Of a stretch of 38,473 nt of DNA, positions 27,212-30,776 are shown in pieces (within the stretch, counting starts at the first letter, position 1; the number at the start of each line of letters is the position of its first letter). A model generated the notes under the pieces. The model saw only the letters and a list, made by a program, of their open reading frames with translations. It made no database searches and was not told the origin of the DNA. Origin of the DNA: Alphaproteobacteria bacterium. GTDB taxonomy: Bacteria; Pseudomonadota; Alphaproteobacteria; SHVZ01. The translations under genes were made by a program, and so were the position numbers. The DNA lies in the NCBI GenBank assembly GCA_016869375.1, contig VGEH01000027.1, positions 1-38,473 of the forward strand, written 5' to 3'.

Positions 27212-29068
27212 CTACGATCCTAGCGTGCGCTCGACATAGGCAGTCAGTTGCCCAAGACAAGCTTCGAGGCTGTTCGCGGCCGTGTCGACGACCAGCTCCG
27301 GCGATGCCGGCGCCTCGTAAGGTGCTGAGATGCCGGTGAATTCCGGAATCAGACCGGCCCTGGCCTTCTTGTAGTGGCCCTTGGGGTCGCGCTGCTCGCA
27401 GGTGGCGAGGTCGGCCTTCACATGGATCTCGTGAAACAACTCCGGGGCAATCTTGCGAGCGCCGTCGCGGTCCTCGCGATAGGGCGAGATGAAGGCCGTG
27501 ATGACGATCATCCCGGCACGGGCGAACAGCGCCGCGACCTCGCCGATGCGGCGGATGTTTTCGGTGCGGTCCTCCGGCGAGAAGCCGAGATCGGCAGAGA
27601 GCCCGTGGCGGATGTTGTCGCCGTCGAGCACCGTCACATGCCAGCCCTTGCGGAAAAGATGCTGCTCGAGCTCAACCGCGAGCGTCGACTTGCCGGCGCC
27701 AGAGAGACCGGTGAGCCAGAGGATACCGCTCTTGTGCCCGTTGGCCTGCCAACGTTCGGCAAGAGCGACGCGGCCCTCCTCGCGCTTGATGTTGGTCGAC
27801 TTGATGCCTTCGCGCCGGACGCGCGCATGACTGTCGAGCGCAACGGTCCCGCCCCCGGCGACGTCGTATGCGTCGACCAGCACGAAACGACCGGTGCGCG
27901 GCAAGACCTTGGAATCGTCGACCGCGAGCGTCGCACGCGTGCGCAGCACGATCTCGGCGATGTCGCCGGCGACCACCGCCTCGGCCGAGCGGCTGGCGAG
28001 ATCGGCGGTGTCGATCACGCGCTCGATCGTCTGCACCTCGACCTGATGCTCGGCGGTCGCCAGCTTCAGCTTGTAGCGCTTGCCGCGCAGCAGCGGCTCG
28101 CGGCCGAGCCAGACGATGCGGACGCGGAGGCTGTTGGTCTCGGCCGGCGCCGAGCCCTCGTGATGGCCGATCTGGCCGCGCTCGACGAAGATCTGGTCGT
28201 CGAGCGTGACGCCGATAGAGCGCCCCGCCTCGGCCTCGCTCGGCTTCGCGTTCTCCGGCCATGCCTCGATCGAGGCGATGCGCGCCTTGCGCCCACCGGG
28301 CGCAAAGGCCAGCGTATCGCCGACCTTGAGCCGCCCGCTCTCGATGCGCCCGGCGATGATGCGGCGTTCGTCGAATTTGTAGACATCCTGGATCGGAAAG
28401 CGGAGCGGCTGGTCGACGGGTGACGGCAGCGGCTGGAAGCCGTCGATCGTCTCGACCAGCGTCGGCCCGCGATACCAAACCATCGCTTCGGAGCGCCCCA
28501 CGATGTTGTCGCCTTCGCGCCCCGAAACCGGGATCACCGCCTTCGGCGCGATGCCGAGCGAACCGAGATAGGCCTCGATCGCATGCGCGACCTCGGTGAA
28601 GCGCGCGCGGTCGTAGCCGACCAGGTCCATCTTGTTAACGGCGACGACGATCTGAGTGAGCCCCAGCAGGCCGAGAAGAAAGGCATGCCGGCGCGACTGC
28701 TCGCGCACGCCCTCCTTCGCATCGACAACGAGCAACGCGCCATCCGCGGCAGCCGCGCCCGTCACCATGTTGCGCAGGAACTCCTTGTGGCCCGGCGCGT
28801 CGACCAGCGTGTAGCCGCGCTTCTTCGTCTTCAGCCAGACCTGCGTGGTGTCGATGGTGATGCCCTGGTCGCGCTCGGCCTGGAAGGCATCGAGCAGGAA
28901 GGCCCATTCGAAGGGCATGCCACGCTTGGCCGAGGAGGCGCGGATCGCTTCCAGCTTGCCCTCGGGCAACGAGCCGGTGTCGTGAACCAGGCGGCCGACC
29001 AACGTCGACTTGCCGTGATCGACATGGCCGGCGAGCGCGACGCGAAGAGGAGAGGTGGGCTCCGCCAT
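27212..29068 (-). CDS. cysN/cysC: Bifunctional sulfate adenylyltransferase subunit 1 / APS kinase (CysNC)
   Basis: The 618-residue fusion has two parts. Residues 1 to about 430 are the CysN GTPase: GHVDHGKST (14-22), DAPGHKEF and NKMDLV, plus EF-Tu-like beta barrels. Residues about 431-618 are APS kinase: P-loop GLSGAGKST (454-462), DGDNIRHGL and the ISPYREDR segment. It drives ATP sulfurylase by GTP hydrolysis and then phosphorylates APS to PAPS. ATG 29068 overlaps the cysD stop by one base (TGATG); the ORF-track N-terminus lies in cysD. PAPS reductase (cysH) and sulfite reductase genes are not in the window. Confidence 0.93.
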   Translation of the reverse strand: MAEPTSPLRVALAGHVDHGKSTLVGRLVHDTGSLPEGKLEAIRASSAKRGMPFEWAFLLDAFQAERDQGITIDTTQVWLKTKKRGYTLVDAPGHKEFLRNMVTGAAAADGALLVVDAKEGVREQSRRHAFLLGLLGLTQIVVAVNKMDLVGYDRARFTEVAHAIEAYLGSLGIAPKAVIPVSGREGDNIVGRSEAMVWYRGPTLVETIDGFQPLPSPVDQPLRFPIQDVYKFDERRIIAGRIESGRLKVGDTLAFAPGGRKARIASIEAWPENAKPSEAEAGRSIGVTLDDQIFVERGQIGHHEGSAPAETNSLRVRIVWLGREPLLRGKRYKLKLATAEHQVEVQTIERVIDTADLASRSAEAVVAGDIAEIVLRTRATLAVDDSKVLPRTGRFVLVDAYDVAGGGTVALDSHARVRREGIKSTNIKREEGRVALAERWQANGHKSGILWLTGLSGAGKSTLAVELEQHLFRKGWHVTVLDGDNIRHGLSADLGFSPEDRTENIRRIGEVAALFARAGMIVITAFISPYREDRDGARKIAPELFHEIHVKADLATCEQRDPKGHYKKARAGLIPEFTGISAPYEAPASPELVVDTAANSLEACLGQLTAYVERTLGS

Positions 29069-29928
29069 CACATGTAGCCCGCGACGCGAAGGCGCTCGAA
29101 GGAGTCTTCGGCCTCGTGATCCATCGCACGGCCGGCGCGCTCCGGCGTCCGCGTCGCCTCGAGCTCGGCGATGATCTCGTCGAGATTGGACGCGTTGCTG
29201 GTCATCGGATGGGTGATGTCCTGGTCGCCGAGCGAGCGATAGCGCTTCCCGCCCTTGGCGAAGTAGAGCTCGACGACCGGGATCTTCTCGCGGCGGATGT
29301 AGCGCCAGACATCGAGCTCCGTCCAATGCAGCAGCGGGTGCACGCGGATATGCGTTCCCGGCGCGAATTCGGTCTTGAACTGGTCCCAGAGCTCGGGCGG
29401 CTGCTCGCGCACATCCCATTCTGCGTTCTCGCCGCGCGGGCTGAAATAGCGCTCCTTCGCCCTTGTCGCATCTTCGTCACGGCGGATGCCGGCGATGACC
29501 GCCTTCAGCTTCAGGCGCTGCACGAGGTTCTTCAGCGCGTAGGTCTTGCGCGCCGAAGAACGCGCCGCCGGCGGCAAAGTCGGGTCCATTTCCTCGACCG
29601 GCGGGCAGGGTTCCTGGTTGAGATTCAGGCCCCATTCCGCCGCATATCGGTCACGGAACGCGTACATCTCGGGAAACTTTTTACCAGTGTCGCAGAACAA
29701 CGCCGGGAACGGCACCCGCCCGAAGAAAGCCTTCCGGCAGAGCCAGACCATGACGTTGGAATCCTTGCCCAGCGACCAGAGGAGACCGAGCGGATCCAGT
29801 TTGTTGAAGGCTTCGCGGAGTATGTAGACGCTCTGAGCCTCGAGCGCGTCGAGATGATCCATGAGGCGCTTGTTAAGCCAGCCCCGCCTTTGTGTCGAGC
29901 CCCCGAAATTCGCCGCCGCCTCCGCCAA
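29068..29928 (-). CDS. cysD: Sulfate adenylyltransferase subunit 2 (CysD)
   Basis: This PP-loop ATP pyrophosphatase family protein activates sulfate with ATP to form APS. The SLGKDSNVM loop and FCDTGKKFPEMYAFRD are present, as are IAGIRRDEDATRAKERYFSPR and HPLLHWTELDVWRYI. The middle and C-terminus (GDQDITHPMTSNASNLDEI) differ from enterobacterial CysD, so it is a divergent branch. The ORF-track start is a TTG at 29928. The ATG at 29862 (MDHLDALEAQSVYILREAF) aligns with known CysD N-termini and is equally or more likely, giving 264 residues. The stop overlaps the cysNC start. Confidence 0.88.
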   Translation of the reverse strand: MAEAAANFGGSTQRRGWLNKRLMDHLDALEAQSVYILREAFNKLDPLGLLWSLGKDSNVMVWLCRKAFFGRVPFPALFCDTGKKFPEMYAFRDRYAAEWGLNLNQEPCPPVEEMDPTLPPAARSSARKTYALKNLVQRLKLKAVIAGIRRDEDATRAKERYFSPRGENAEWDVREQPPELWDQFKTEFAPGTHIRVHPLLHWTELDVWRYIRREKIPVVELYFAKGGKRYRSLGDQDITHPMTSNASNLDEIIAELEATRTPERAGRAMDHEAEDSFERLRVAGYM

Positions 29929-29946: not shown

Positions 29947-29999
29947 CTTGATCTAGGCCGGCCGGCTTCCTAAATAGGTAGTCCCGGCGGTGCCTATTT
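29947..29999 (+). promoter_or_regulatory. Candidate heat-shock promoter and overlapping palindrome before hsp20
   Basis: CTTGAT (29947-29952), 16 bases, then CCTAAATAGG (29969-29978) resembles an alphaproteobacterial sigma-32 promoter. The -10 lies on the left arm of AAATAGGTA/TGCCTATTT (29972-29980, 29991-29999), so a repressor could act there. If transcription starts further upstream, the same repeat would instead be an extra RNA hairpin. Confidence 0.4.
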
Positions 30000-30014
30000 C
30001 AGGGCCGCAGGAAT

Positions 30015-30063
30015 GGGGCGCCCGGTCGGGCGTCCCGGCACTCGCTCAAAGGAGGAGGCCGTG
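30015..30063 (+). promoter_or_regulatory. ROSE-like RNA thermometer in the hsp20 leader
   Basis: A GC hairpin, GGGGCGCCC/GGGCGTCCC (30015-30023, 30028-30036) with a GGTC loop, precedes the key hairpin. There CTC-G-CTC (30041-30047) pairs with GAGGAG (30052-30057), the Shine-Dalgarno of the GTG at 30061. The loop is AAAG, and G30044 bulges opposite the duplex. The 5' strand contains TCGCT, matching the ROSE signature UYGCU with its crucial bulged G. Melting on heating would free the ribosome-binding site. ROSE elements control small heat-shock genes in rhizobia. Confidence 0.65.
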
Positions 30064-30519
30064 AGTCGTATGCCGCTCTTCAACAGCCCGTTCCTGCTCG
30101 GTTTCGACCATTTTGAGCGGGCCGTCGACCGAATCGCCAAGATGTCGGCCGAAGGCTACCCGCCCTACAACATCGAACAGCTCGGCGAGAACCGGATTCG
30201 CATCACGTTGGCCGTGGCCGGCTTCGCGGACCGCGACCTGCAGATCCAGGTCGAGAACAACCAGCTGACAGTGCGCGGGCGCCAGGAGGACGCGGGCGAT
30301 CGCGTCTACCTGCATCGCGGCATCGCGGCTCGCCAGTTCCAGCGGAGCTTTGTTCTGGCCGAAGGCATTGAGGTCACGGGGGCCGAGCTCGACAACGGGC
30401 TTCTCCATGTCGACCTCGTTCGGCCAGAGCAGGAGAGTCGGGTGCGGAACGTGGAGATCAAGACGAGCAAGTCCGGCAGCCGGACGATCGACAGCAGGAC
30501 CTCGCAGGCGAAGTCCTGA
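30061..30519 (+). CDS. Small heat-shock protein, Hsp20/alpha-crystallin family
   Basis: The 152-residue ATP-independent holdase has an alpha-crystallin domain covering about residues 33-135. It includes the NRIRITLAVAGFADRDLQI strand pair and the GLLHVDL motif near the end. The N-terminus MPLFNSPFLLGFDHFERAVDRI is the class A rhizobial Hsp20/IbpA type. The start chosen is GTG 30061, spaced correctly behind AAAGGAGGAGG; the ORF-track start at 30013 lies within the leader hairpins. It is followed by the DUF1150 gene 41 bases downstream. Expression is probably heat-controlled at the mRNA level by the hairpin upstream. Confidence 0.9.
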   Translation: MSRMPLFNSPFLLGFDHFERAVDRIAKMSAEGYPPYNIEQLGENRIRITLAVAGFADRDLQIQVENNQLTVRGRQEDAGDRVYLHRGIAARQFQRSFVLAEGIEVTGAELDNGLLHVDLVRPEQESRVRNVEIKTSKSGSRTIDSRTSQAKS

Positions 30520-30560
30520 TGACCGGGTGCCATGGAAGGACCCGGAGAAGGAGCTCAGAG

Positions 30561-30776
30561 ATGACCGAGAACGAGAACTACAGCCCGATGAACGCCAACG
30601 ACCTGGCGCGGCTGGGCATGAACTTCGTCGCCTATGTGAAGCCGATCGTCGTCGAGGACGAGATGCGCTTCGCCATATGCGCCGCCGACGGCACGCAGAT
30701 GGGCCTCGCGCCGAATCGCGAGATCGCGTTCGCCGCCATCCGCCAGCACGAGCTGGAGCCGCTCAGCGTCCACTGA
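30561..30776 (+). CDS. DUF1150 family small protein
   Basis: The 71-residue protein contains LARLGMNFVAYVKPI and a C-terminal IRQHELEPLSVH, typical of DUF1150, a family of unknown function regularly placed after hsp20 in alphaproteobacteria. ATG 30561 follows GGAG; the ORF-track start overlaps the hsp20 stop. Co-transcription with hsp20 suggests a heat-shock link. It converges on the histidine kinase gene with only 7 bases between stops. Confidence 0.85.
   Translation: MTENENYSPMNANDLARLGMNFVAYVKPIVVEDEMRFAICAADGTQMGLAPNREIAFAAIRQHELEPLSVH

Follow-up and report, generated by a model that had tools for sequence, protein, structure and literature searches.

A probable RNA thermometer of the ROSE type in the leader of an alphaproteobacterial hsp20-DUF1150 operon

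In a stretch of 38,473 nucleotides from an alphaproteobacterium (contig VGEH01000027.1; hereafter the window), a gene for a small heat-shock protein is preceded by sequence that could pair with its Shine-Dalgarno (SD) sequence. An earlier note, made from the letters alone, read this pairing as a ROSE-like RNA thermometer, and the question raised by the locus is whether the leader is indeed such an element and, if so, how it relates to those already described. The features on which the analysis rests are the following.

29947 to 29975, plus strand: RpoH (sigma-32)-like promoter, CTTGAT-N17-CCTAAAT, a sequence pattern recurring in orthologues
29987 to 30008, plus strand: 5' hairpin, GCGG-U-G-CC(UAUUUCA)GG-G-CCGC, with G29992 bulged; matches the opening hairpin of the RF00435 consensus, conserved
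30015 to 30036, plus strand: middle hairpin, 9 bp and fully paired, GGGGCGCCC(GGUC)GGGCGUCCC, from RF00435 alignment and folding
30037 to 30060, plus strand: SD-masking hairpin, from sequence, RF00435 alignment, folding and comparison
30061 to 30519, plus strand: hsp20 gene with GTG start, small heat-shock protein (HSP20/alpha-crystallin; PF00011, 64.1 bits)
30561 to 30776, plus strand: DUF1150 gene, the partner 3' of hsp20 (PF06620, 55.6 bits)

The hsp20 leader contains three hairpins, the last of which takes in the Shine-Dalgarno sequence

The SD sequence GAGGAG (30052-30057) is separated from the GTG start codon of hsp20 at 30061 by 3 nt, and it pairs, as had been claimed, with CUC-G-CUC in the 5' arm CUCGCUC (30041-30047; in the DNA, CTCGCTC-AAAG-GAGGAG at 30041-30057), leaving G30044 bulged in the anti-SD strand as is found in ROSE elements. 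The core consists of six pairs (C30041-G30057, U30042-A30056, C30043-G30055, C30045-G30054, U30046-A30053 and C30047-G30052), and within it UCGCU (30042-30046), a form of the ROSE motif U(U/C)GCU, faces AGGA of the SD. The statement in the earlier note that every other base pairs holds for this core; however, it does not hold for the extended stem, in which three further pairs (G30037-C30060, G30038-C30059 and C30039-G30058; 30037-30039 with 30058-30060, GGC/GCC) create a second bulge, A30040. The loop, AAAG, is 4 nt long (30048-30051). This length had been taken as the mark of an unusually compact variant, and as a distinguishing feature it is rejected, because four is the modal loop length among orthologues (25/81) and in leaders across the class (30/85) as well as the length in the Rfam RF00435 consensus, and short ROSE hairpins are already known in Pseudomonas (PMC3669281). 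The separate stable hairpin reported 5' of the SD hairpin was recovered as the 9-bp helix at 30015-30036. In all, three hairpins span 29987-30060 with the SD in the last, within the two to four hairpins of ROSE elements, and the element thus begins at 29987, further upstream than the 30015 where the earlier note had placed it.

The element belongs to a described class but falls below the Rfam cut-offs

At the Rfam gathering cut-offs, no match was found in the window. Below them, RF00435 (ROSE) aligned with 29987-30062 over model positions 1-94 (28 bits, E 0.025); a search with this model had been suggested as a check, and it produced the full-length match but not the score, as the gathering cut-off of 45 bits was not reached by the leader. 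When the whole genome was searched with RF00435, three matches were obtained (45.8, 28 and 19.3 bits), all directly before hsp20 genes, and one paralogue leader of the genome does pass the cut-off (45.8 bits). The other two elements (G000:C191:5465-5562 and G000:C221:5847-5915) carry a UUGCU core and stand directly before hsp20 paralogues. Neither the RF00435 nor the RF02523 cut-off was passed by any of 40 class leaders scanned, the window included, and since even textbook UUGCU leaders among the 40 fail, these cut-offs are conservative here. RF02523 (ROSE_3, cut-off 43 bits) gave no match in the window and none over its cut-off in 115 genomes, and its scores for three orthologues (L180, L036 and L191) were 18-26 bits. 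A weak minus-strand match to mir-1202, below the Rfam cut-off, was set aside as chance.

The leader is assigned as ROSE-like because U(U/C)GCU faces the SD, a G is bulged, several hairpins are present and the element stands upstream of a small heat-shock gene (PF00011 at 30061). RF00435, whose type is Bradyrhizobium japonicum hspA, has in common with it the order of the hairpins, including a first hairpin with a bulged G, the U(U/C)GCU with a bulged G facing the SD, the 4-nt loop and the place upstream of hsp20. It differs in the lower stem of the last hairpin, which is about 13 bp there and only 3 bp in the window, so that in the window the start codon lies outside the SD hairpin, and in that the window has UCGCU as its core and lacks the U-G wobble. 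The ROSE_3 consensus (RF02523) places CUC-G-CU opposite AG-GAG behind a bulged-G hairpin; this is the SD helix design of the window and its orthologues, which is therefore not new, although ROSE_3 has no middle hairpin. The short ROSE-like thermometers of Pseudomonas ibpA (PMC3669281) likewise combine a short SD hairpin, U(U/C)GCU and an unpaired start codon with a stable upstream hairpin and an RpoH promoter, but their core holds a G-U wobble, whereas UCGCU is the natural form in the window. Two other classes were rejected by sequence. The anti-SD strand is CUCGCUC and not the four consecutive U of a fourU thermometer; ROSE-G (PMC12857270) shares a core without a wobble pair, two C-G pairs and a bulged G, but its motif is CUGCU, its bulged Gs oppose each other on the two strands and it is placed before ABC transporter genes, whereas CUCGCUC has a single bulge and the SD strand of the window has none.

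The Shine-Dalgarno helix is conserved and covaries

Among 83 non-redundant orthologous loci, mostly from Rhodospirillales and unnamed Alphaproteobacteria, CTCGCTC was found no more than 45 nt from the start in 69, against a mean of 0.5 (maximum 3) in shuffles of the sequence 5' of the SD. A bulged-G helix of six pairs reaching into the SD was present in 80/83 (shuffle mean 8.1, maximum 17; such statistics ignore shared ancestry), and as a control it was present in 1/74 leaders of the neighbouring DUF1150 genes. Because shuffles are blind to shared ancestry, the Alphaproteobacteria were also sampled at about one genome per family, which gave 60 type 1 hsp20 genes (close to that of the window) and 35 type 2 genes (more distant paralogues), the upstream DNA being taken whether or not it held a motif. 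The bulged-G helix occurred before 48/60 type 1 and 30/35 type 2 genes (78/95 leaders); with A, C or U bulged instead, it occurred at most 4 and 1 times, respectively (no more than 5 of 95). Collection of leaders started from the hsp20 protein because a covariance model, R1, yielded few matches (6 in 289 genomes, its first-pass filter letting few candidates through); R1 was seeded from N-padded sequences, recovers about 25/94 class leaders at E <= 0.1 and was not relied on.

To assess covariation, the two arms were located by their sequence, irrespective of pairing (n=85). The outermost pair was Watson-Crick in 60/85 leaders compared to 30.8 with partners reshuffled (maximum 43), occurring as C-G, G-C and A-U with G-U besides, and the loop-closing pair in 69/85 compared to 48.5 (maximum 60), while the inner pairs are almost invariant because the SD cannot vary. 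Four hsp20 orthologues (L043, L229, L231 and L232), several of them in AT-rich genomes, are without the anti-SD motif and are possible thermometer losses.

It is scarcely credible that CTCGCTC is instead a DNA-level element of transcription, or that its pairing is coincidental. The conserved bases of the first ROSE elements were initially read as a protein-binding DNA site (PMC4166951), and bare CTCGCTC-N3-9-GAGGAG occurs several times in this GC-rich genome, about as often as a reversed control, such that the motif was discarded as a genome-wide detector. However, neither a DNA site nor a chance match would be expected to show a place directly before hsp20, a variable loop, compensatory changes and a strict bulged G, and the RpoH-like promoter lies upstream of CTCGCTC. 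A second alternative concerns the fold itself, as prediction also yields a hairpin in which the GTG start is paired and the SD is in the loop:

30036 to 30075, plus strand: competing hairpin, CGGCA/UGCCG and CGCUCA/UGAG-CG, from prediction

In the window, the predicted stability of this hairpin exceeds that of the ROSE hairpin (-16.2 versus -12.0 kcal/mol at 37 C), and it is also preferred in the orthologues L005 and L088. That it is the working structure, with the ROSE pairing secondary or the two exchanging, is nevertheless quite improbable, as two orthologues from the same genus, L004 and L006, do not retain the competing hairpin and give the ROSE helix a probability of at least 0.94, and it is in the ROSE helix that pairs are conserved and covary. 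Across 80 orthologues, the probability of the ROSE helix at 25 C exceeded 0.5 in 85% without and in 69% with 15 downstream bases. It should be noted that a start-codon hairpin would itself be repressive, and possibly heat-labile.

Taken together, the full-length sub-threshold match, the conservation across the class, the covariation and the near-invariant bulged G lend good support to the central claim of the earlier note, namely that a ROSE-type thermometer masks the ribosome-binding site of hsp20. The leader element is a real ROSE element of an already described class, and the 5' leader of the hsp20-DUF1150 operon very probably acts as a ROSE-type RNA thermometer. A regulatory element missed by the Rfam cut-offs is now confirmed, and the same design stands before hsp20 across the Alphaproteobacteria.

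Promoter and proposed mechanism

The promoter sequence CTTGAT-N17-CCTAAAT fits a heat-shock sigma factor, and the pattern was found in 44/83 orthologues (shuffle mean 0.9, maximum 4). From its position, the transcript would begin near 29982-29986, close to the first hairpin. Sulfate-assimilation genes (a PAPS reductase-domain protein, then a fused GTPase/APS kinase; 27212-29928, minus strand) are divergent to the hsp20 operon, which places the heat-shock promoter between the two.

By analogy with the ROSE literature (PMC3669281, PMC11342760), the hsp20 SD would be repressed at low temperature and released by heat. CUC-G-CUC, in the structure drawn from comparison, would pair with the SD at low temperature and keep ribosomes off. 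Upon heat shock, going by other members of the family, the RpoH-like promoter would raise transcription, and the helix, weakened by its bulged G, would open and allow Hsp20 to be made, while the upstream hairpins would stay folded as a scaffold or a binding site. In ViennaRNA the SD helix is still closed at 45-50 C, although such models predict ROSE melting poorly.

The core sequence differs between hsp20 paralogues

Type 1 leaders carry UCGCU (41/52) and type 2 leaders mostly UUGCU (23/33; p about 7e-8), and predicted core stability favours type 1 by about 4 kcal/mol (median -4.0 versus -0.2). The tighter core, UCGCU, belongs to the DUF1150-linked hsp20 genes, and UUGCU to their paralogues. 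In Pseudomonas putida, replacing this U of the ibpA core by C lowered heat induction to 1.7-fold (PMC3669281), and the presence in the window of the form that weakened induction there was counted against the ROSE reading. Either a higher temperature is needed to open type 1 leaders, or the difference is offset by other features. We hypothesize that, within one cell, UCGCU leaders and those of UUGCU paralogues may open at different temperatures; if the split does set two opening temperatures, one cell would have a graded heat response from two versions of one RNA switch.

A bulged G is also conserved in the 5' hairpin

The 5' hairpin, of the form Y-G-CC(loop)GG-R with a bulged G, was found in 75/81 orthologues (shuffles 7.9, maximum 15) compared to 2 for each other bulge, and in 74/95 leaders across the class compared to 2, 1 and 0 for the other bulge bases. 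Its outer stem varies freely with compensation, but the search itself had required pairing there, and the contrast between bulge bases is therefore the cleaner evidence. The hairpin is also position-specific, with 79 occurrences in 150-nt leaders versus 32 elsewhere on the same strand (277 kb). Since RF00435 and RF02523 both include it in their consensus, it is part of the known ROSE models; a non-exhaustive literature search found no paper discussing it. The strict bulged G provides a concrete, testable part of the poorly understood upstream ROSE hairpins, and it is worth following, as is the UCGCU/UUGCU split between paralogues.

A strict bulged G is as expected for a recognised site, and one explanation is that the leader serves mainly as a binding site for Hsp20 autorepression, with temperature acting when unfolded proteins titrate Hsp20 away rather than by melting of the RNA. 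IbpA of E. coli binds its own leader and represses its own translation, for which Arg93 is needed and Tyr34 is suggested as its partner (PMC10474464). Equivalents of both residues, read from the motifs YPPYN and GIA-x-R-x-F and not from a full alignment, are kept in the window's protein and in 80-82 of the 83 orthologues, and binding of Hsp20 to the hsp20 leader is therefore plausible by analogy. As the main role of the leader, however, autorepression is unlikely, as the most conserved part is the SD helix itself and a temperature response of ROSE leaders is also seen in purified systems (PMC3669281); moreover, Hsp20 binding and RNA melting can coexist. The RNA thermometer remains the preferred reading. 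Tentatively, and with more doubt than confidence, we suggest that in hsp20 leaders of Alphaproteobacteria the SD hairpin is one bulged-G module and the 5' hairpin, single or double, a second, each conserved in its own right, the second being possibly a recognition site for Hsp20 and repeated before DUF1150 in the window, with UCGCU and UUGCU cores in paralogues as two set points.

Two tandem bulged-G hairpins precede the SD hairpin in 22/81 leaders (L066, L074, L022, L090 and others). In the window, a hairpin of the ROSE 5' hairpin kind was also observed inside the operon, between hsp20 and DUF1150:

30523 to 30545, plus strand: second bulged-G hairpin, CCGGG-U-G-CC(AUGGAA)GG-A-CCCGG, at the same place in L004

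It lies 15 nt before the DUF1150 start codon. Within 150 nt past the hsp20 stop, bulged-G hairpins were found in 10/83 loci compared to 1, 0 and 0 for the other bulge bases, and some of these may be terminators.
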